Shown one piece after another: positions 23,826 to 37,271 of a stretch of 64,000 nucleotides of DNA (position 1 is the first letter of the stretch; each line of letters begins with the position of its first letter). Below the pieces are notes generated by a model, which was given only the letters and a program-made list of their open reading frames with translations, did not search any database and was not told the origin of the DNA. Location: the NCBI RefSeq assembly GCF_020252395.1, contig NZ_JADCDB010000010.1, positions 1 to 64,000 of the forward strand, given 5' to 3'. The translations under genes were made by a program, and so were the position numbers. Source of the stretch: Aestuariivirga sp. GTDB lineage: Bacteria; Pseudomonadota; Alphaproteobacteria; Rhizobiales; Aestuariivirgaceae.

Positions 23826-24875
23826 ATGGCGGGCAAGAATAGTTTTCCCAAGCTTCACAATGCGATGTGGCCTGGGCTCGTGGGCAAGGGGCCCGATTCG
23901 GAGCCGCCTATCGATCTTGACACCATGATCGCCCTGACTGCCAAAGCGGATGTCGATGGCGTGAAGTTCGACGGCATCGACATCTTCCATGCTGCGCCGC
24001 ACACCAACATTGATTTTACCGATGACGAGGCGAAGCAGCTGGCTGACAAGGCCCTCCGCCACGGGCTGGCCATCGGCTCCATCGTGGCGCCGGTCTGGCC
24101 GCCGGTGGGTGGCGGCTCGGCCATGGGCTCGGCCGAAGACCGCAAGAAGTTCGTGGCCAATGTGCGCAAATCCTGCGAGCTGGGCAGAAGGCTGCGCGAA
24201 CTGGGCGTGCGCAACTATGGCGTGATCCGCATCGATTCGGCGTCAAGCCCGGCCGATTGGGCCAAGGACCCCGCCGGCAACACCAAGCTCATCGCCCAGA
24301 CCTGGCGCGAGGCCTGCGACGTGGCGAAGGATTATGGCGAGCGGCTGGCCGCCGAGGGCGAAATCTGCTGGGGCGGCATGCACAGCTGGAAGGCGGTGCT
24401 CGACACCATGGAGCAGACGGACCGCCCCGGCATCATCGGCTTCCAGGCCGATATGGCGCATACGCTGCTCTACACCATGGGCTACAACGCGCCGGAAGCC
24501 GCGCTGCTGCCCGAAGGCTTCGACTGGAAGGACCAGGCGGCGCTCGACGCCGCCCTCGTCCGGATGACGGATATTCTGAGGCCGTGGACCATCGATTTCC
24601 ACGTCGCCCAGAACGACGGCACGGTGAAGGGCATGGGCTATCACGACAAGACCGGCCGCCACTGCATGGTGACGGACCCCAACGGGCGGCTCGACATCAC
24701 CAAGCATGCCGGGCTGTGGCTGCGCAACACGGACGGCTCGCTCACCAAGGCCATGAAGCACATCTGCTGGGATGGCTGCATGTTCCCCAACGAGGTGATG
24801 ATGAAGCAGCAGACCTGGAACGACATCCTCGGCGTGATGATCAAGGTGCGCGACGCGCACGGCTGGGAGGGCTGA
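23826..24875 (+). CDS. TIM-barrel protein (xylose isomerase-like sugar phosphate isomerase/epimerase family)
   Basis: AP-endonuclease-2-like TIM barrel sequence; GGAGG SD before ATG 23826. Confidence 0.8.
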
Positions 24876-24879
24876 TCCG

Positions 24880-26022
24880 ATGGCGAAGAAGACGCTCAAC
24901 ATCGGCATGGTGGGCTATGGTTTCATGGGCCGCACCCATTCCAACGCCTTCGCGCAAGCGCCGCATTTTTTCGATCTCGGCTACACGCCGGTGCTGAAGA
25001 CGATTTGCGCCCGCAACGCCGATAGAGCCAAGGCCTTCGCGGAGCAATGGGGCTATGAGTCGTCCGTCACCGACTGGCGCAAGCTCATCGACGACAAATC
25101 GATCGGCCTGATCGACATCGCCAGCCCCAATGATACGCATATGGAGATCGCCATCGCGGCGGCACAGGCCGGCAAGATGGTGATGTGCGAAAAGCCGCTC
25201 GGCCGCTCGGCCGCCGAAAGCGCCAAGATGGTGGAGGCCGTGGAGCGCGCGGGCGTTGCCAACATGGTGTGGTACAACTACCGCCGCGTGCCCGCCGTGA
25301 CGCTGGCCAAGCAGCTGATCGACGAAGGCCGCCTGGGCAAGATCTTCCATTACCGTGCGAAGTTCCTGCAGGACTGGACGATCTCGAAGGACCTGCCGCA
25401 GGGCGGCCAGGGCCTGTGGCGGCTCGATGTGGGGGTCGCGGGTTCGGGGGTCACCGGCGATCTCCTCGCCCATTGCATCGACACGGCCATGTGGCTCAAC
25501 GGCGGCATCTCCTCGGTCACCGGCATGACCGAGACCTTCATCAAGGAGCGCCACCACAACATCACCGGCAAGACGGAGAAGGTGGAGATCGACGACGCGA
25601 GCCTGTTCCTCGCCCGCTTCGACAACGGCTCGCTCGCCAGCTTCGAGGCCACCCGCTATGCCCGCGGCCACAAGGCGCTTTACACGCTGGAGATCAACGG
25701 CGAGCACGCCTCGATCTTCTGGGACCTGCATGATTTGCACCGGCTCCAGTATTTCGACCACCGCGACGAGGGCCGCACCCGCGGCTGGCGCTCGGTGCAC
25801 ATCACTGATGGCGACCACCCCTATATGAACAAGTGGTGGGTGCCCGGCCTGCAGATCGGCTACGAGCACACCTTTATCCACCAGGCAGCGGATTTCATCG
25901 AAGGGCTTACCTCCGGAAAACCCGCCGCACCGACCTTCCGCGATGCCCTCGCCACCGATCTGGTGACCGATGCGGTGCTCAAGTCGGCCAGGACCGGGCA
26001 GTGGGAAAGCGCCAAGGGCTGA
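24880..26022 (+). CDS. Gfo/Idh/MocA family oxidoreductase
   Basis: [18 protein letters not shown] Rossmann motif, [12 protein letters not shown]. Confidence 0.92.
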
Positions 26023-26030
26023 CGCCTCAG

Positions 26031-26098
26031 CTTGCACCGAGTTTAGGCAGTAACTGCAAGCGCGACAGCTTTTGCAAGCTCTGAAAGGCGTCTTGCAA
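26031..26098. promoter_or_regulatory. Cluster of four TTGCAAG-type half-sites upstream of the sugar ABC operon
   Basis: CTTGCA 26031, CTGCAAG 26054, TTGCAAG 26072, CTTGCAA 26092; last two form perfect IR TTGCAAG-N13-CTTGCAA. Confidence 0.5.
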
Positions 26099-26164
26099 AT
26101 CGTCCGGGACAGGTTAGTCTCCCGCCAAAGAAGAGCCCTCAGGGCCGCTGAACAGGGAATGGGA

Positions 26165-27256
<1,092 letters not shown>

Positions 27257-27304: not shown

Positions 27305-28735
27305 ATGACCGTAGTGACGAAGATGAAAGGGTTCGCGGCCGCCGCAGGCCTCGCCGCGACCCTGCTGACCGGAGGGGCGAGCTACGCCCTTGCGGAAGAA
27401 GTGACGCTGACGATGGCGGTGCCGGATTGGCCGCCAACCCGCATCATGAAGAAGTTCTTCGACGAGCAGTACAAGCCGCCATCCGGCAACAAAGTGAAGC
27501 TCGACGTCGATTTCATTCCGTGGCCCGACTTCTACACGCGCGTCAACGCGTCGCTGACGTCCGGCGAACAGAAGTACAACTTCATTGTCTCTGACTCGCA
27601 GTGGCTGGGCGCCTTCGTCGAAGGCGGCTACTACCGCAAGATCAACGACCTTCTCGACGCCGACCCGGACTTCAAGAAGACGCTGATGAGCGTGCACCCC
27701 GCACCTCTCGCGGCCTATTCGACTTACCCCTACAAGTCGGAGAACTATTACGGCTTCCCGCAGTTCCCGGACGTTCTCGTGACCTTTGGCCGCAAGGACA
27801 TCCTGTGCAACGAGGAAGAGCAGAAGAACTTCCAGGCCAAATACGGCAAGAAGCTGCCCTGCACCGGCGAAGAAATCGACGCCATGACCTGGGACGACTT
27901 CAAGAACGTTGGCGAGTTCTTCCGCAGGAAGAAGGGCGAGATGCTGGCCGGCGCGCCGGCCGAGGACGATTTCTACGGAATCGCCTTCCAGGCCGGCAAG
28001 GGCTACGACTTCTCGTCGATGCAGATCAACGGCTTCATCTGGCAGATGGGCGGCAACATCTGGGATGAAACCCAGGCGCCGGCCGGCCAGGCCGAAGGCG
28101 TGGTCAATTCGCCGCAGGCTGTCGCGGCTCTCGAGAAGTATTTGAGCCTCCTGGAGTACATGCCGCCCGTCGCCAAGACCGGCACCATGGACATCTTCAA
28201 GTCGGACGAACTGTTCCGCGAAGGCAAGGTCGCGATGAACATCGACTGGATTGGCCTTGGCGAAGCCTCGCTCGATCCGAAGTCGTCCAAGGTCTCGGAC
28301 AAGCTGGTGTTCGGCCAGATGCCGGGCACCATGGTCGACGGCAAGAACGTGAAGTGGTCCAACATCGGCGGCCAGCCCTTCGTGCTGACCACCTGGACGA
28401 CGCCGGAGCAGACCAAGGAAGCCGTGGACTTCGTGAAGTGGTGGCTGTCTGACGACATCCAGCATCAGTTCGCGGCGAGCGGAGGCCAGTCGGCCGTGAA
28501 GTCGGTCTATGAGGATCCGAAATACGTGACCTACCGTCCGTGGAACCGCGCCTGGGCCCCGCAGCTCGACTGGCAGAAGGACGTATGGCACGTGCCGCAG
28601 TTCTTCGAGCTCCTGACGCAGCAGCAGGACCAGTTCGATCTTGCCATCACCGGCAAGCAGGACGCCAAGACCACGCTGGATAACATCGCCAAGTTCCAGC
28701 AGGACCTTCTGAAAAACGCCGGCCTCATCCAGTAA
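27305..28735 (+). CDS. ABC sugar transporter extracellular substrate-binding protein
   Basis: Signal peptide; family 1 solute-binding protein-like sequence between ATPase and permease genes. Confidence 0.88.
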   Translation: MTVVTKMKGFAAAAGLAATLLTGGASYALAEEVTLTMAVPDWPPTRIMKKFFDEQYKPPSGNKVKLDVDFIPWPDFYTRVNASLTSGEQKYNFIVSDSQWLGAFVEGGYYRKINDLLDADPDFKKTLMSVHPAPLAAYSTYPYKSENYYGFPQFPDVLVTFGRKDILCNEEEQKNFQAKYGKKLPCTGEEIDAMTWDDFKNVGEFFRRKKGEMLAGAPAEDDFYGIAFQAGKGYDFSSMQINGFIWQMGGNIWDETQAPAGQAEGVVNSPQAVAALEKYLSLLEYMPPVAKTGTMDIFKSDELFREGKVAMNIDWIGLGEASLDPKSSKVSDKLVFGQMPGTMVDGKNVKWSNIGGQPFVLTTWTTPEQTKEAVDFVKWWLSDDIQHQFAASGGQSAVKSVYEDPKYVTYRPWNRAWAPQLDWQKDVWHVPQFFELLTQQQDQFDLAITGKQDAKTTLDNIAKFQQDLLKNAGLIQ

Positions 28736-28749
28736 CACACATCAACCCC

Positions 28750-28785
28750 GGGTGCGGGGATGCTTGTCCCCGCACCCTTCTTGTC
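28750..28785 (+). terminator. Strong intra-operon hairpin after the substrate-binding protein gene
   Basis: GGGTGCGGGGA-N6-TCCCCGCACCC perfect 11-bp stem followed by ttcttgtctctt. Confidence 0.7.
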
Positions 28786-28805
28786 TCTTCCGGAATTCGG
28801 TGCCG

Positions 28806-29867
28806 ATGACCTCCACGACAGCGACAGCTTCGCCGCCAGCCCTCATGCGCCTGTCTCCTGACAACTGGAAGCTGGCCATACTGGCCGGACTCGCCGTGTC
28901 GGCGGCCGCGGTCATCGCGCTGCCGGCCTCCGCTTCCTTCTGGATCATCGGCGCCGTGGCGGCCATGATAGCCGCCGCCTTCGTGGTCAATGCCTATCGC
29001 CGCAAATATTATGGCGGCCTGCTCGTCGCACCGGCCATCGCCGTGCTCTTCGTCATGAACATCTTCCCGCTGCTGTGGTCGCTGGGGCTCTCCTTCTATG
29101 CCTATCAGTCGAACCAGCAGTCGATCCGTTTCGTAGGTCTCGCGAATTACATCAAAGTGCTGACCAACGACATCATGGCGCCCGCCAACTGGGGGGCGCT
29201 GGTCAACACCGCGATGTTCGTCGTTCTCACGGTGACGGCGCAGATGGTGGTGGGCTTCCTGCTCGCCATGCTCTTTGCCAAGCAGTTTCCGCTACGCAAG
29301 TATCTGCTTATCCTCGTGCTGACGCCGATGATGCTCTCCGTCGTCGCTTCGGGCGTGTTCTTCACCTATTACTATGACCCGACCTTTGGCATCCTCAGCT
29401 ATGTGGTGAATGCCATCACCGGCGGGCAGTTCATCCTGATGAGCACCAAGGTGGGCGCCGTCACCGGCATCGTCTTCGCCGATGCCTGGATGTGGTCGCC
29501 CTTCGTCATGCTGCTCGTGCTGGCAGGGCTCGTCTCCGTTCCAAAGTATCTCTATGAGGCCGCCGCCATCGACCGCGTGTCCAAGTGGCGGCAGTTCTGG
29601 ACCATCACCTTCCCCTATATTCGCGGCCTCCTGATGCTGGCGCTGCTGTTCCGCACCATCGAGGCCTTCAAGCTTGCCGACCTCGTCATCCTGCTTACCA
29701 AGGGCGGCAATGACACGATGACGATCTCCTATCATCTCATCCGCATCGCCAACGAGCAGAACAAGACGTCCGAAGGCGCGGCACTCTCCTATCTCATGCT
29801 GTTCATGGTCATCGTGTTGACCAACCTCTATCTCTACATCGCCAATCGCCGCAGCCAGGGAGCCTGA
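28806..29867 (+). CDS. ABC sugar transporter permease
   Basis: Multi-TM; EAAAIDRVSKWRQFWTITFPYI EAA motif; ATG 28806 preferred since ORF start 28752 lies in the hairpin. Confidence 0.9.
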   Translation: MTSTTATASPPALMRLSPDNWKLAILAGLAVSAAAVIALPASASFWIIGAVAAMIAAAFVVNAYRRKYYGGLLVAPAIAVLFVMNIFPLLWSLGLSFYAYQSNQQSIRFVGLANYIKVLTNDIMAPANWGALVNTAMFVVLTVTAQMVVGFLLAMLFAKQFPLRKYLLILVLTPMMLSVVASGVFFTYYYDPTFGILSYVVNAITGGQFILMSTKVGAVTGIVFADAWMWSPFVMLLVLAGLVSVPKYLYEAAAIDRVSKWRQFWTITFPYIRGLLMLALLFRTIEAFKLADLVILLTKGGNDTMTISYHLIRIANEQNKTSEGAALSYLMLFMVIVLTNLYLYIANRRSQGA

Positions 29868-29870
29868 GCC

Positions 29871-30815
29871 ATGGCCGAACACAACTCCATCTGGGAAGCG
29901 CTGGGCTTCCGCAAGGCGAGCGGCGTGGGCGAGGCGGGCTGGGGCCGCACGCTGATCGTCGCCATCGTGTCCTTCATCTACTTCCTGCCGGTGCTGTTCA
30001 TTATCTTCACTGCCTTCAAGCCGCAGGATGCCGCGCTCTCTGTGCCGCCGACGCTCTCGCCCACCTCGCTGTTCGGCCTGATCCCCGGCCAGTTCGTATT
30101 CACGCCGACTCTGGAGAATTTCGGCTCGGTGTTCATGCGCTCGATGACAGCAGGCGGCGCGCCGGAGCCCACCGGCTTCGACCGCTATTTCTTCAACTCC
30201 ATCGTGATTGCCTCGTCGTCGGTGCTCCTGGCCCTGGTGATAGGCACGCTCGCCGCCTTCGGCTTCTCGCGCTATCCGCTGAAGGGCAACGACACCTATC
30301 TCTTCATCATCCTGACGACGCGCATGCTGCCGGCGATCGTCGTCATCATCCCGGTGATCCTGATGTTCCGCGTGGTGGGCCTGTCGGGGTCCTACACCGG
30401 CATCATCCTGCTCTACACGGCTTTCAACCTTGCCTTCACCATCTGGATGATGAAGAGCTTCTTCGACGAGCTGTCGCTCGATGTCGAAGACGCAGCAAGA
30501 ATCGACGGCTCGTCGGACACCAGGGTGTTCTTCAAGATCGCGCTCCCCCAAGTGATTGCGGGGCTTGCCGCCACCTTCGTCTTCGGCCTCATCCTCACCT
30601 GGAACGAGTTTCTCTTCGCACTGCTCCTCTCGGGTCCTGATACGCGCACCGTGCCGGTGGCCATGAACCAGGCCGTCTCGTCCGGTGGCCGCGGCACCGA
30701 CTGGACGCTGCTGGCGGCCATCGAAACCCTGTTCCTCATCCCCGTCTTTCTCGTCACCTTCTTCCTGCAGAACCACCTGCTCAGAGGCGTCACTTTCGGA
30801 ACCGTAAAGCGCTGA
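29871..30815 (+). CDS. ABC sugar transporter permease
   Basis: Multi-TM; EDAARIDGSSDTRVFFKIALPQ EAA motif. Confidence 0.92.
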   Translation: MAEHNSIWEALGFRKASGVGEAGWGRTLIVAIVSFIYFLPVLFIIFTAFKPQDAALSVPPTLSPTSLFGLIPGQFVFTPTLENFGSVFMRSMTAGGAPEPTGFDRYFFNSIVIASSSVLLALVIGTLAAFGFSRYPLKGNDTYLFIILTTRMLPAIVVIIPVILMFRVVGLSGSYTGIILLYTAFNLAFTIWMMKSFFDELSLDVEDAARIDGSSDTRVFFKIALPQVIAGLAATFVFGLILTWNEFLFALLLSGPDTRTVPVAMNQAVSSGGRGTDWTLLAAIETLFLIPVFLVTFFLQNHLLRGVTFGTVKR

Positions 30816-30816
30816 C

Positions 30817-31905
30817 ATGCCGACCATCGAAATCCGAAAAGTCACCAAGCAATTCGGCGCCTTCACGGCTGTGAAGGACGCCGACCTGAAGGTCGAGGCC
30901 GGCGAGGTGGTCTGTCTCCTCGGCCCCTCGGGCTGCGGCAAGACGACGACGCTGCGCATGATCGCCGGCCTCGAGCGCGCCACCAGCGGAGACGTCATCA
31001 TCGCCGGCCAGCGCATGAACGAGTTGACCCCGCAAGAGCGTGACATCGCCATGGTGTTCCAGTTCTACGCGCTGTATCCGGCGCTCAGCGTGGGCCAGAA
31101 CATCGCCATGCCGCTTCACTACGAGAATCTCTCGAAGCCGGAATCCGATGCCCGCGTCATGAAGGTCGCGCAGATCATGCACCTCACCGAGGTGCTGGAC
31201 CGCATGCCGAACCAGATTTCGGAGGGTGAAAAGCAACGCCTCGCGGTGGCCCGTGCCATCGTGCGCGATCCCAACTGCTTCCTCTTCGATGAGCCGCTGT
31301 CGCGCCTCGACGTGGAGCTTCGCCATTCCATGCGCGGCCAGATCAAGGAGGTGCTGACCGGCCTCTCCAAGGCCACCGTCATCGTCACGCATGACCAGCT
31401 CGAGGCCCTCACCATGGCCAGCCGCATCGCCATCATGAAGGACGGCGTGATCGAGCAGGTGGGCACGCCGCACGAGGTCTTCGCCAAGCCCGTCAACGTC
31501 TTCGTCGCCAGCTTCATCGGCACTCCGCAGATGAACCTGGTCGAAGCGGACCTGCAAAGCTTCGGTGGCGGCAACGCGAATGTCGTGCTGGCCGGGCAGC
31601 CGCTCAGCATCGCGGCCGATCCTGCCGTGTCGCGGCTGAAGCCGTCGAAAGTCACCGTCGGCATCCGGCCGCGCGCCTTCACCACGGCGCAGGAGAAGGC
31701 GGACGACACCATCGCGGCCCAGGCCGAGCTGATCGAACCGATGGGAGCCGAGACGCTGATTCACGCCCGCACCTTGTCCGGAGGCGATATTCGCGTGGTG
31801 GTGCCGCGCGACAAGCGGGTGAAGGTGGGCGAGGCGCTGCACCTCAAGCCCGATCCGCGGCAGACGCATTTCTTCGGCGAGGACGGCAAGGCGGTGCGCA
31901 CATGA
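30817..31905 (+). CDS. ABC transporter ATP-binding protein, CUT1/UgpC-like (NBD2; degenerate signature ISEGE)
   Basis: GPSGCGKTT, VFQFYALYP, ISEGEKQR in place of LSGGQ, FLFDEPLSRLD, VTHDQLEA intact. Confidence 0.92.
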   Translation: MPTIEIRKVTKQFGAFTAVKDADLKVEAGEVVCLLGPSGCGKTTTLRMIAGLERATSGDVIIAGQRMNELTPQERDIAMVFQFYALYPALSVGQNIAMPLHYENLSKPESDARVMKVAQIMHLTEVLDRMPNQISEGEKQRLAVARAIVRDPNCFLFDEPLSRLDVELRHSMRGQIKEVLTGLSKATVIVTHDQLEALTMASRIAIMKDGVIEQVGTPHEVFAKPVNVFVASFIGTPQMNLVEADLQSFGGGNANVVLAGQPLSIAADPAVSRLKPSKVTVGIRPRAFTTAQEKADDTIAAQAELIEPMGAETLIHARTLSGGDIRVVVPRDKRVKVGEALHLKPDPRQTHFFGEDGKAVRT

Positions 31906-32342
31906 GCAACCAGGACCAGGGCATGACGCGGCAAGGCGCGCTGCGGCTCGAATTCTTCATCATCGGGCTTGGCATCTTCGCGCTGCTCCTGATCTTCCAG
32001 CCCTTCAGCCTGCAGCTTTTCGCCGCTGGCAGCGTGCTCGTTGTCATCGCCGGGTTGATCAACAACCTTCTGCCCATGGCGCAGCCCGGTGTCAGGGTGC
32101 GGAGCGTCGTCACCGTCGGCATGGTGGTGGCGATGATCTTCTGCATTGTGCTGCTGATCTCGATCGGTGCAGCACACCTCTATGGCGCCTTCTTCCTTAA
32201 ACCGCCGGACCCCAACACGCTGGCGGGCAAGGCGCAGTTGGCCGCGGCGCCCTTCTGGCGCCAGCCTCTGGTGTGGGGCATCGCCGCCGTGGCGGCCGTG
32301 CTGGCGCTGGCCATCGCCGCGATGAACAAGGCGCGGAACTGA
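31902..32342 (+). CDS. Uncharacterised multi-TM membrane protein in the sugar ABC operon
   Basis: 146 aa, about four hydrophobic segments; ATGA overlap with NBD2 gene. Confidence 0.75.
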   Translation: MSNQDQGMTRQGALRLEFFIIGLGIFALLLIFQPFSLQLFAAGSVLVVIAGLINNLLPMAQPGVRVRSVVTVGMVVAMIFCIVLLISIGAAHLYGAFFLKPPDPNTLAGKAQLAAAPFWRQPLVWGIAAVAAVLALAIAAMNKARN

Positions 32343-32376
32343 ATTGGCGCAAGATGAAGAACCGGAAGATCAAGCG

Positions 32377-33069
32377 ATGAGATTTCAAGGCAGGCGCGCG
32401 GTCGTCACCGGCGGCCTCTCGGGCATCGGCGAAGCGGTTGCCAGGCGGATCGAGGCTGAGGGCGGCAAGGTCGCCGTGTGGGACATGCAGGGCGGCATCA
32501 AGACCGATATTGCGAACTGGGACTCGGTCGAGGCCGCCGCGGCAGAAACCGTGCGCCAGCTGGGCGGCATCGATGTCTTGGTGAACAGTGCTGGAATCGC
32601 AGGGCCCACAGCCACCGTGACGGAACTCAAGATCGAGGATTGGCACCGCACCATCGCCATCAACCTCAACGGCACATTCTTCACCAACCGCGCCGTGGTG
32701 CCGCACATGCTGGCGGGCAATTACGGCCGCATCGTCAACATCGCCTCGATCGCCGGCAAGGAGGGCAATCCCAACGCCTCGGCCTATTCCGCCTCCAAGG
32801 CGGCGGTCATCGGCTTCACCAAGTCGCTGGCCAAGGAACTGGCCAAGACCAACATCACCGTCAACAGCGTGACGCCCGCGGCGGTGCGGACCCCGATCTT
32901 CGACCAGATCCCGCAGAGCCATGTCGACTTCATGCTCTCCAAGATCCCCATGGGCCGCCTCGGCAAGGTGGACGAGGTGGCCAGCCTCGTCTGCTGGCTG
33001 GCCAGCGAGGAATGCTCCTTCTCGACGGGCGCCGTGTTCGACGTCTCAGGCGGCCGCGCCACCTATTGA
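32377..33069 (+). CDS. SDR family oxidoreductase
   Basis: VVTGGLSGIGEAVA, NSAG, YSASKAA motifs. Confidence 0.92.
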   Translation: MRFQGRRAVVTGGLSGIGEAVARRIEAEGGKVAVWDMQGGIKTDIANWDSVEAAAAETVRQLGGIDVLVNSAGIAGPTATVTELKIEDWHRTIAINLNGTFFTNRAVVPHMLAGNYGRIVNIASIAGKEGNPNASAYSASKAAVIGFTKSLAKELAKTNITVNSVTPAAVRTPIFDQIPQSHVDFMLSKIPMGRLGKVDEVASLVCWLASEECSFSTGAVFDVSGGRATY

Positions 33070-33091: not shown

Positions 33092-33862
33092 TCATATCGC
33101 CGTATACCCGCCGTCGATCAGCAGGTCATGGCCGCAGATCATGCCCGATGCGGGGGAGGCGAGGAACAGGATGGCGTCCGCCACTTCCACGGGCTTGCCG
33201 AAGCGGCCGCCGGGGATCTTGGCTTTCATCGGATCGCCCTTCTCGGGCTGGCCCCAGACCTGCTCGCCCATGGGGGTGAGGATCACCGTGGGGCACACCG
33301 TGTTGATCTGGATGTTGTGTTTGGCCCATTCCGACGTCATCACCTTGGTCAGCATGTTGAGGCCGCCCTTCGAGGCGCAATAGGCGCCATGCGCATCGAG
33401 CCCGATCACGCCGGCCTGGGACGAGACATTGACGATCTTGCCCCATTTCTGGGCGATCATCTGCGGCGCCAGCTCGCGGGCGAGCAGGAAGGGCGCGCGG
33501 AGGTTCACCGCCATGGTGGCGTCCCAGTCCTCGGCCTTGGCATCGAGCAGCATGTCGACCAGTGCGATTCCTGCGTTGTTGACGAGTATATCGATGACGC
33601 CGAAGGCGGCCAGCGCCTGCCGCGCGGCTTGCACGGGGCCATCGGCGGTTGCCATGTCGGCGGAGATCGTGACACAGCGGCGGCCCATGGCCTCCACGGC
33701 GGCCTTCACCTCCGCCAGGCCCGCGGCGTCGCGGCCCACTGCCGCGATGTCGGCCCCGGCATCGGCCAGCACCTTGGCTGCCGCGAGGCCGATGCCCTTG
33801 GTGGCCCCCGTCACCAGCGCACGCCGGCCCGTGAGTTCGAATCTTTTTGTCCAGTCGCCCAT
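33092..33862 (-). CDS. SDR family oxidoreductase
   Basis: ALVTGATKGIGLAAA, NNAG, YCASKGG motifs. Confidence 0.92.
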   Translation of the reverse strand: MGDWTKRFELTGRRALVTGATKGIGLAAAKVLADAGADIAAVGRDAAGLAEVKAAVEAMGRRCVTISADMATADGPVQAARQALAAFGVIDILVNNAGIALVDMLLDAKAEDWDATMAVNLRAPFLLARELAPQMIAQKWGKIVNVSSQAGVIGLDAHGAYCASKGGLNMLTKVMTSEWAKHNIQINTVCPTVILTPMGEQVWGQPEKGDPMKAKIPGGRFGKPVEVADAILFLASPASGMICGHDLLIDGGYTAI

Positions 33863-33922: not shown

Positions 33923-34252
33923 ATGCAGAGAATGGGACGGGTCATCAGGCTCAAGGCTGAGATCGTTCCGGAATACAAGCGCATCCACGCGGCGGTCTGG
34001 CCCGAGGTGCTGAAGGCGATCCGTGACTCGAACATCCGCAACTATACAATCTTCCTCAAGGAGCCGGAAAACCTGCTCTTCGCCTATTGGGAATATCACG
34101 GGACCGACTTCGGCGCCGACATGAAGAGGATGGCGGACGCGCCGCGCATGAAGGAGTGGTGGACCATCACCGACCCGATGCAGATTCCCTTCGAGACGCG
34201 CAAAGAGGGCGAGTGGTGGGCGGAGATGGAGGACGTGTTCCACACGGATTGA
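33923..34252 (+). CDS. L-rhamnose mutarotase-like protein
   Basis: RVIRLKAEIVPEYKRIHAAVWPEVLKAIRDSNIRNYTIF...MKEWWTITDPMQIP typical RhaM. Confidence 0.85.
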   Translation: MQRMGRVIRLKAEIVPEYKRIHAAVWPEVLKAIRDSNIRNYTIFLKEPENLLFAYWEYHGTDFGADMKRMADAPRMKEWWTITDPMQIPFETRKEGEWWAEMEDVFHTD

Positions 34253-34298: not shown

Positions 34299-35228
34299 CT
34301 ATTTCTTCCGCTTCTTCCCAAAGAAGTTCCGCTCCAGTTCGGCAAAGGCCCGCTGGTAGACATTCTGCTCGGTGCGCGGGATCAGCATCACGTCGTCCTC
34401 AGGGCTTGCCACCCAGTCACCCGTCCAGACGGCGAAGGTGGTGTTGTCCGCCGTCACCGGCCAGAGGCGGGGCCCGGAAACATAGTTCATCCAAGGGATC
34501 TCGCACTTGGTGATGCGGTAGGAGAAGCTGCGCGTGATGTCATCGAGGTGGAGGAGTTCCTCGTTGATGTGCCCCTCGCCGAAGTAGAAGTCGCGCACAC
34601 CCGAGACCTTGTCGGAGCGGTGGCGCTTCAGCATGTGCATCTTGGTGATCTCGCCATGCCAGCCGCCCATGCCGGCAAAGTCGCGCATCACTTTCCACAC
34701 ACCGTCCACCGGCGCCTTTATGACGCGCGAGGTCCACACCTTGTTGGGCTGGAAGCCCTTCCAGCGCTCCGCACCCGCGGGCTTTTGCGGCTTGGTCTTG
34801 GCGATCAGGGCGGCGAGCGACTTGAAGTTGCCGGCGAAAACGTCTTTGGAAATGATCTTCTGGTACTTGCCCTCATCCCCCGGGGCCTCGTCGAATGTCG
34901 CTTCCCACTCGGCGAAGGTCTGGCCGGTATGGGTGACGGGATAGAGCCTAAGTGTCGCGAGATAGTTCTGCACCGGAAACGCTGGCGTCTCGAAGTTATA
35001 GCTGAAGCAGCGCTTCGCATCGTCCAGCATGAGCAGCCGCTCGCGCACATGGGCGCCATCGGCGAGGTGGAAGGAGCGGATGCAGCCCACCACGTCCGCG
35101 TCGAGGCCCTTCTCGATTGCCGAGCGCTTCACCGCGGTCCAGTTCGGAAGGCCGTTGAAGTCGCGCACGATGGACCAGACGGTTTCGACTGGGGCTTTGA
35201 GGATGATCGAGGCATAGGCGCGGGCCAT
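34299..35228 (-). CDS. Tandem SRPBCC (START/Bet v1-like) double-domain protein
   Basis: Two similar halves, each with ILKAPVETVWSIVRDFNGLPNW / VIKAPVDGVWKVMRDFAGMGGW pattern. Confidence 0.8.
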   Translation of the reverse strand: MARAYASIILKAPVETVWSIVRDFNGLPNWTAVKRSAIEKGLDADVVGCIRSFHLADGAHVRERLLMLDDAKRCFSYNFETPAFPVQNYLATLRLYPVTHTGQTFAEWEATFDEAPGDEGKYQKIISKDVFAGNFKSLAALIAKTKPQKPAGAERWKGFQPNKVWTSRVIKAPVDGVWKVMRDFAGMGGWHGEITKMHMLKRHRSDKVSGVRDFYFGEGHINEELLHLDDITRSFSYRITKCEIPWMNYVSGPRLWPVTADNTTFAVWTGDWVASPEDDVMLIPRTEQNVYQRAFAELERNFFGKKRKK

Positions 35229-35229
35229 A

Positions 35230-36432
35230 TCAGGCTCCTCTGGTGATGCTGCGGAAGGCGTGGACGCAGGCCTCGGCGAAAGCCGGGTCGTTGATGTGGG
35301 CGCCGACTTCGATGAGTTGGCGGTGGGGCGCGGGCTGCCAGGCCGCGCGGATCGCGCCGAACAGCGCCTGATCGGCTTGCGGATCGTGGAAGGGCTTGCC
35401 CGGCGCATCGATGGCGGAGACGCCGCCGAGCGGCAGCAGGAAGCGCACCGGGCCCTCCATACGGTTGATGCGCCCGGCGATCCACCGGCCGATGGCTGCA
35501 TTCTCCGGCGCCGTGGTGCGCATCAGCGTCACCTGGGCATTGTGGACATAGAGGTTTCGCGCAGCGAACTGCGCCGGCACCGTCTCCCGCCCGCCGAAGT
35601 TCACCATGTCGCAGGCCCCCACCGATCCCACCCAGGGAATGCGGCGGCGGATCGCGGCGCCAAAACGATCCTCCGTACACGGCAGAACGCCGCCGAAGAG
35701 ATGGTCCGCCACCTCCGTCGTGGTGATGTCGAGTGCTGCCGTGATGAGCCCCGAATCGATCAGCTTCTCCAGGCACTGGCCGCCGGTGCCGGTGGCGTGG
35801 AAGACGAAGCATTCGCAGCCGTCCTCGATCAGATGCCGGATCTGCGCGATGCAGGTCGTGGTGACGCCGAACATGGTGAGGCCCACGGCACGCTTGGATT
35901 CTTCACCTGCGGGAATGCCGTTTAGCGCCATGCCTGCGGCCGCATGCGCCGCATTGCCGATCACCGTGCGGGTGATGGCGTTGAGACCGGCGACATCGGC
36001 AACCGCATGCATCATCATGATGTCGGTGGGGCCGACATAGGGCGCCACATTGCCGGATGCCATGGTGGAGACCATCAGCTTCGGCACGCCGATCGGCAGC
36101 GCCCGCATCGCCTGCGTCACCATCGATGTATTGCCGCCGCCGCCCAGCCCCAGCACCGCGCCGATGTTCTCGCGCGAGAGAAGGAAACGCCCCAGCGCCT
36201 CAGCCATCGCGGTCACCGCGCGGCCGCGATCGGCATGGCCCAGCACGGCATCGGGGCTGGAAGGGTGATGCCTCGCCACCATCTCCGGCGTCACGTCGGC
36301 CTTCGCCGTGCTCGGCGTTGTCGAGATGTCGACCAGCAGGGCAGGGGCGCCCGTTTTCCGCACCTGCTCGACCGCGTAGCGGAGTTCCGCCTCCTTGGTG
36401 TCGCAGGTGCCGATGACGTAGACCGGCTTCAC
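35230..36432 (-). CDS. Tm-1-like ATP-binding domain protein (UPF0261)
   Basis: KPVYVIGTCDTKEAELRYAVEQV, GAVLGLGGGGNTSMVTQAMRALPIGVPKLMVSTMASG. Confidence 0.88.
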   Translation of the reverse strand: MKPVYVIGTCDTKEAELRYAVEQVRKTGAPALLVDISTTPSTAKADVTPEMVARHHPSSPDAVLGHADRGRAVTAMAEALGRFLLSRENIGAVLGLGGGGNTSMVTQAMRALPIGVPKLMVSTMASGNVAPYVGPTDIMMMHAVADVAGLNAITRTVIGNAAHAAAGMALNGIPAGEESKRAVGLTMFGVTTTCIAQIRHLIEDGCECFVFHATGTGGQCLEKLIDSGLITAALDITTTEVADHLFGGVLPCTEDRFGAAIRRRIPWVGSVGACDMVNFGGRETVPAQFAARNLYVHNAQVTLMRTTAPENAAIGRWIAGRINRMEGPVRFLLPLGGVSAIDAPGKPFHDPQADQALFGAIRAAWQPAPHRQLIEVGAHINDPAFAEACVHAFRSITRGA

Positions 36433-37271
36433 GCCTTGGCCCAGCCCTGCTTCATGTTACGATAGCCCAGCTTATAGACCTCCTCCGGCGAGGGCGCGAA
36501 GTCGCGCCACACGCGCGTCGCGGCGGCCAGCGCCGGCATCGAGCGGCCAAAGGCCTCGATGGTGAGAAAGCCGTCATACTTCGACTTCTTCAGTGCCTTG
36601 TAGGTCTCGGGCCACGGCACATGGCCCTTGCCCGGCGTGCCGCGGTCATTCTCGGAGATGTGGACGTGCACCATGTGCTTCGCGATGGTTTTGATCGCGC
36701 CCACCGGGTCCTTCTCCTCGATGTTGGAATGGAAAGTATCATACATGCCCTGGATGTGGGGGTGATTCACCTCATCGAGGTACTCGGCAAGCTGCTGCAT
36801 CGTATTCAGGAAATAGCATTCGAAACGGTTCAGCGCCTCGAGCGCGAAGGTGACGCCCTTCTTGCCCGCATAGTCGCCCGCCTTCTTGTGGAAGGAGAGC
36901 GCGCGCTTGCGCTCCGCCGCGGTCGCGGGGTTGCCGGAGAAGAAGCCGAGCTCGGAATGCATCGGGCCGCCGAGGATCGGGGCGCCCAGCGCGGCGGAAC
37001 AGTCCACCGTCCACTTTGCATAGTCCAATGCGGCGGCCTGGCTGGCCTTGTCCGGCGAGATCGGGTTCTTGCCCTGGATGACGCTCACCACCGTGCGTTC
37101 CAGCCCGATCTTCTCCAACAGCGCACCGAGCCTCGCATAGTGATCGGGCGTTCCCTCGAACATCGGAATCTCGACGCCGTCATACCCGGTCTTTTTCAAG
37201 GCGCGCAAAATAGGCTCATGCGCAAGCGTGACATGCGGCGTCCACAGCAGAAGATTGAATCCCAGCTTCAT
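36429..37271 (-). CDS. TIM-barrel sugar epimerase/isomerase (D-tagatose/psicose 3-epimerase-like)
   Basis: MKLGFNLLLWTPHVTLAHEPILRALKKTGYDGVEIPMF...DTFHSNIEEKD...VHVHISENDRGTPGKGHV. Confidence 0.85.
   Translation of the reverse strand: MKLGFNLLLWTPHVTLAHEPILRALKKTGYDGVEIPMFEGTPDHYARLGALLEKIGLERTVVSVIQGKNPISPDKASQAAALDYAKWTVDCSAALGAPILGGPMHSELGFFSGNPATAAERKRALSFHKKAGDYAGKKGVTFALEALNRFECYFLNTMQQLAEYLDEVNHPHIQGMYDTFHSNIEEKDPVGAIKTIAKHMVHVHISENDRGTPGKGHVPWPETYKALKKSKYDGFLTIEAFGRSMPALAAATRVWRDFAPSPEEVYKLGYRNMKQGWAKA

Follow-up and report, generated by a model that had tools for sequence, protein, structure and literature searches.

UPF0261, its TBST partner and a sugar-transport locus in Aestuariivirga

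Described relatives of the UPF0261 protein

The UPF0261 and TBST families are widely distributed, being found also in Haloferax, in fungi and in plants (Tm-1), but have almost no assigned chemistry. Their co-evolution was noted earlier (PMC5028733) and their pairing in fungi has been published (PMC8963296). To these known families and their pairing, the present analysis adds evidence of loss and replacement, a keto-sugar context and ABC-UPF0261 fusions. In plant Tm-1 and Tm-1-like proteins the two families are fused (PMC5028733), and Tm-1 inhibits tomato mosaic virus replication, whereas the genome described here carries the same two families as separate genes, with a sugar-catabolic locus as context. 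The acetovanillone catabolism of Novosphingobium aromaticivorans starts with MarK, a single-component kinase according to PMC13101465 (2026), which cites Hall et al. 2025. PDB entry 9MPY is Saro_1862, a UPF0261 domain protein of the same organism with bound acetovanillone. Given the same organism, compound and year, Saro_1862 is almost certainly MarK. Crystallographers are reportedly among the authors of the MarK study, which we counted toward this identification. The link to MarK provides a specific reaction class to test. The two-component acetovanillone kinases HpeHI and AcvAB also employ two proteins per small-molecule phosphorylation, a likeness by analogy; they were ruled out as possible UPF0261-TBST systems, their ATP-grasp and swivel domains of the rifampin-phosphotransferase type being unrelated folds (PMC12167813).

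We analysed a stretch of 64,000 nucleotides from an Aestuariivirga sp. genome (contig NZ_JADCDB010000010.1, hereafter the window). Its UPF0261 gene (35230..36432, minus strand, GTG start, 400 aa) is the only one of the genome. The encoded protein matches both PF06792 (E 3e-60, 203.6 bits) and PF23189 (E 1e-88, 296.3 bits), well over the gathering score of 27, and its structural model (pLDDT 94.7) matches Tm-1 (3WRX) and Saro_1862 (9MPY). The N-terminal Tm-1 structures 3WRW-Y are matched with E about 1e-92. The window protein and Saro_1862 have the same UPF0261 fold at 37% identity and have in common 19 of 21 internal invariant UPF0261 positions. In the phylogeny, however, the window protein falls, as does Tm-1, into a Tm-1/TBST-linked clade (100/100 support), while Saro_1862 branches outside this clade, on a long branch; MarK/Saro_1862, described as single-component and acting on acetovanillone, belongs to a different branch of the family. 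Shared residues combined with separate clades suggest that the chemistry is likely to be common to the two proteins and the substrate is not. By analogy with Saro_1862/MarK, the window protein is most likely an ATP-dependent small-molecule kinase. The view of the preliminary description that UPF0261 proteins have no settled role in bacteria is therefore outdated, in the light of 9MPY and of what PMC13101465 reports on MarK.

A gene triplet and its missing fourth gene

The UPF0261 gene is the middle member of three adjacent, coupled genes on the minus strand (37271-34299). It is preceded by TIMx (36429..37271, ATG start, 280 aa), a ketose-3-epimerase-like TIM barrel (PF01261, E 2e-43), and followed by a gene (34299..35228, 309 aa) for a double SRPBCC protein (PF10604, E 8e-37, 127 bits), in which two SRPBCC stretches were found. 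The TGA stop of TIMx and the GTG start of UPF0261 share a 4-base overlap (GTGA, 36429-36432). The UPF0261 stop (35230-35232) is separated by a single base, at 35229, from the SRPBCC ATG at 35228. The preliminary description of three nearly fused genes was confirmed in all its coordinates. The TIMx-UPF0261 spacing lies between -4 and +8 nt in every relative measured except one (G304, +149), and the gene order is kept across about 30 species of the genus; the coupling is therefore beyond chance.

A survey of 37 genomes of the genus established that the triplet is a quartet, TIM barrel-UPF0261-TBST(PF09370)-SRPBCC, reduced by one gene. The complete order is found in 17 operons (one broken across contigs and one cut at a contig edge), in which TBST occupies the site of the 1-nt junction at 35229. 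Thirteen operons, including that of the window, have TIMx, UPF0261 and SRPBCC without TBST (TIMx of G300 being on a different contig). Exactly one TBST is present elsewhere in 12 of these 13 genomes; in the remaining one (G317, 89% complete) no TBST was found in the genome. Conversely, no second TBST was found in any genus genome with an operonic copy. Four genomes (G298, G247, G321 and G322) are without all four quartet genes. The window genome has a single TBST gene, on contig C14 (G000:C14:59352-60143, 413.6 bits), and none adjacent to or fused with UPF0261 in the window operon. A contig titled 'Rhizobium sp. Q54' (L115), possibly a misnamed metagenome bin, carries the operon of this genus at 87% identity.

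The 12 in-trans TBSTs form one clade (100/99), apart from the operonic TBSTs. The operons without TBST, by contrast, are not one clade: the TIMx+UPF+SRPBCC tree needs three changes, and monophyly was rejected (AU p 2e-46). The UPF0261-SRPBCC junctions left after the loss differ in length (+1, +9 and +15 nt), which fits separate loss events, even if the main group contains +1 as well as +9 junctions. Because TBST-containing operons are widespread outside the genus, we favour a reading in which, on the tree evidence, operonic TBST probably disappeared on three or more occasions, in genomes covered by an in-trans TBST; whole-operon transfer between species could lower this count, and the tree method is itself subject to limits. 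The genes beside the in-trans TBST vary from one related genome to another. A single TBST move together with an OiaX/OiaK operon was ruled out by these varied neighbours and by the scattered position of the TBST-less operons. On contig C14 of the window genome (L053:9302-14486), the in-trans TBST ends an operon with OiaX (above cut-off), an OiaK-like kinase and a BKACE enzyme.

The tight coupling had been read as a functional link. As the UPF0261-SRPBCC junction is a former TBST site, its tightness gives no evidence that these two proteins act directly on each other; more generally, a translationally coupled triplet can arise where a partner gene has moved elsewhere and its former neighbours have been joined. 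Conservation of the arrangement beyond close strains, proposed as a check in the preliminary description, holds for the UPF0261-SRPBCC linkage: an SRPBCC gene lies within 8 kb of UPF0261, on the same strand, in 48 of 80 named loci; these loci often have two adjacent SRPBCC genes in place of the one double protein of the window. The strict triplet, on the other hand, is found only where the operonic TBST has been lost.

TBST is the usual partner of UPF0261, being located within 3 kb of it in 71 of the 80 named loci. Of the 298 genomes examined in the order, both families are present in 96, UPF0261 only in 13, TBST only in one and neither in 188 (p 2e-62, a value that overstates independence because the genomes are related), so that the pair is present in about one third of the sampled genomes. 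In one genome of the genus (G312, 92% complete), neither UPF0261 nor TBST was found anywhere in the assembly, and TIMx and SRPBCC are directly coupled through a TAATG junction; TIMx and SRPBCC can thus act without the pair. The pattern of loss and replacement suggests that UPF0261 and TBST depend on each other.

The window UPF0261 could instead be a single-component kinase like MarK, with no need for TBST, the in-trans copy belonging to the adjacent OiaX/OiaK operon and being unrelated. MarK is indeed described as single-component (PMC13101465), several outer UPF0261 branches are without a nearby TBST, the TBST of the window genome does adjoin OiaK/OiaX genes, and G317 has no TBST at all. Yet the window protein belongs to the TBST-linked clade, an in-trans TBST accompanies all but one of the 13 TBST-less operons, only some of these genomes have OiaX/OiaK next to TBST, and G312 lost both genes together. 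We consider this alternative unlikely, and retain the reading of UPF0261 and TBST as mutually dependent.

The wider locus and its probable sugar context

D-tagatose and D-psicose (allulose) 3-epimerases have their fold and four metal-binding positions in common with TIMx, whose nearest relative in the PDB is D-tagatose 3-epimerase 8XIX (E 6e-35). TIMx residues E145, D178, H204 and E239, which we take to be the metal-binding positions of ketose 3-epimerases, are invariant in 14 sequences and align with those of solved epimerases. TIMx nevertheless differs from these enzymes in falling below the equivalog cut-off of its nearest NCBIfam, D-psicose 3-epimerase (145.7 bits against 300).

Levoglucosan catabolism is a second point of comparison, with a Gfo/Idh enzyme close to levoglucosan dehydrogenase, TIM-barrel enzymes and an ABC importer; the window has all three kinds. 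To our knowledge, UPF0261, TBST and SRPBCC proteins are not part of the published levoglucosan route. The pathway genes start about 13 kb from the triplet, at 23826, and outside the triplet all but one are on the plus strand. The ABC operon is headed by a second xylose-isomerase-like TIM barrel (TIM355, 23826..24875, ATG at 23826, 349 aa), for which no relative of known structure was found by sequence. It is followed by a levoglucosan-dehydrogenase-like Gfo/Idh oxidoreductase (24880..26022; PDB 6A3F, E 2e-84), which scores far below the equivalog cut-off of its nearest NCBI family, levoglucosan dehydrogenase NF052479 (350.3 bits against 650). Both genes were detected in the window with cluster profiles built from other bacteria: TIM355 matches a cluster found there beside UPF0261-TBST (hmmsearch E 4e-196), and the Gfo/Idh clusters with the Gfo/Idh genes that neighbour UPF0261-TBST there. 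Next come a second ABC ATPase (26072..27256, start codon uncertain), a solute-binding protein (27305..28735, PF13416/PF01547), two sugar permeases (28752..29867 and 29871..30815), a UgpC/MalK-type sugar transporter ATPase (30817..31905), a small membrane protein conserved in 11 loci and without family match (31902..32342) and a first SDR oxidoreductase (32344..33069). A second SDR oxidoreductase (33092..33862, minus strand) has the same direction as the triplet and lies beside SRPBCC in much of the genus. Between it and the triplet is a gene of the L-rhamnose-mutarotase family (RhaM, 33923..34252, start codon uncertain; PF05336, E 3e-32).

Similar gene sets recur elsewhere. In other Rhizobiales and in one Rhodobacteraceae genome, UPF0261-TBST is accompanied by a cupin, the second TIM barrel, Gfo/Idh and TIMx. 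SDR, RhaM and a CUT1-type transporter are also present in some of these loci, and Ilumatobacter keeps UPF0261-TBST-cupin-TIMx. This recurrent set (cupin, TIM barrels, Gfo/Idh, CUT1) points to a pathway acting on a sugar-like compound, probably by way of a keto-sugar. The suggested link of the triplet to the adjacent sugar-uptake operon is strengthened by the upstream Gfo/Idh and second TIM barrel (23826-26022). As for the proposal of an uncharacterised pathway acting on the product of that uptake, what we find is a catabolic unit that is conserved and neighbours a sugar ABC transporter, the triplet itself being a derived form of that unit.

An aromatic or polyketide-like substrate, with SRPBCC and UPF0261 handling a phenolic ketone as MarK does, would agree with the acetovanillone bound in 9MPY, with the hydrophobic ligands of SRPBCC folds and with the branched-chain-type transporters of other UPF0261-TBST-SRPBCC loci. 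It seems to us just as unlikely as a single-component kinase: ketose-epimerase-like TIM barrels and cupins accompany the pair in the window, the Rhizobiales, the Rhodobacteraceae and Ilumatobacter, the proteobacterial loci add RhaM, Gfo/Idh and CUT1 sugar transporters, and the annotated part of the surroundings of the triplet showed neither a carboxylase nor a CoA-ligase of the acetovanillone route. A keto-sugar substrate is therefore preferred for the window. A sugar substrate does not hold for the pair in general, however, since UPF0261-TBST is found in other bacteria beside branched-chain-type transporters, flotillin and molybdenum hydroxylases.

Candidate pathway and UPF0261 partners in other bacteria

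Stand-alone TBST is extremely conserved, about 100 of its residues being invariant across 30 sequences, and its structural model (pLDDT 81.5) resembles, after 2P10, methylisocitrate lyase and PdxS. Both are enzymes that make or break carbon-carbon bonds. The model makes TBST most likely a lyase or rearrangement enzyme, acting after phosphorylation.

We propose, with about even confidence, that the locus serves to import and break down a sugar-like compound. The CUT1-type ABC transporter would import this compound, which the levoglucosan-dehydrogenase-like Gfo/Idh and the two xylose-isomerase-like TIM barrels would oxidise and rearrange as a keto-sugar, possibly assisted by the SDR oxidoreductases and the RhaM-type mutarotase. 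UPF0261 would then phosphorylate a pathway intermediate with ATP, and TBST, a phosphoenolpyruvate-mutase/isocitrate-lyase-type TIM barrel and the putative obligate partner of UPF0261, would most likely split or rearrange the phosphorylated product, while the double SRPBCC protein may bind an intermediate. In the lineage of the window, TBST has left the operon and would be supplied in trans from contig C14. Counted against this model were the single-component character of MarK, the position of Saro_1862 outside the TBST-linked clade, the lack of TBST in G317, the varied neighbours of in-trans TBST, the non-sugar context of the pair in other bacteria and the retention of TIMx-SRPBCC without the pair in G312.

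UPF0261-TBST might also be a ligand-sensing or regulatory pair rather than a pair of catabolic enzymes, as the older Pfam name, TIM-barrel signal transduction (PMC5028733), and the fusion of TBST domains to sigma-54 activators beside UPF0261-TBST operons could indicate. We rate this slightly below the two preceding alternatives: the regulator-type TBST is an additional gene, found next to the stand-alone one, whose conservation is as expected of a catalytic site, and the UPF0261 relative Saro_1862 is very probably a catabolic kinase. Genomes of this kind commonly have overlapping genes and sugar-transport neighbours, which would agree with an ordinary sugar operon of unremarkable gene order. 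This reading is improbable: operonic TBST is repeatedly absent only with an in-trans copy, and both the co-loss in G312 and the order-level co-occurrence speak against it.

More tentatively than the pathway itself, we suggest that UPF0261 and TBST could form a widespread two-protein kinase-lyase unit acting on keto-sugars and related ketones; in many bacteria it would be coupled to import by fusion of UPF0261 to an ABC ATPase, and an in-trans TBST could replace the operonic copy. If true, this would give a metabolic function to the bacterial counterpart of plant Tm-1; the keto-sugar substrates to which the gene set points make the role of the family testable. An ABC-transporter ATPase is fused upstream of UPF0261 in 36 of 141 UPF0261 reading frames, the Pfam run being made on one of the 36, and such a fusion would suit phosphorylation on entry. 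UPF0261 frames of about 770 aa in the order were considered as UPF0261-TBST fusions; Pfam and blastp identified the 36 fused frames of the examined loci as ABC-ATPase-UPF0261, with TBST as a separate gene.

The ABC-ATPase-UPF0261 protein of L146 (5908-8172) and of 35 further loci is about 750 aa long and usually followed by TBST; these loci often have a flotillin-type protein and two SRPBCC genes, and some have molybdenum-hydroxylase genes. In L057 (14059-15972) and about 19 similar loci, the TBST domain fused to a sigma-54 activator beside UPF0261-TBST operons is probably a regulator sensing the ligand of the pathway. In a similar operon (L181:13712-15406), an SRPBCC domain is fused to a zinc-type alcohol dehydrogenase. 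The UPF0261 gene BAB2_1127 of Brucella abortus is a hit of a signature-tagged screen, and vaccine strain S19 differs here from virulent strains (PMC2364660). Finally, a divergent UPF0261 gene (L046, 7785-9020) lies directly after the gene of a RuBisCO-like protein, a second link of UPF0261 to RuBisCO-like/DUF1537 genes.
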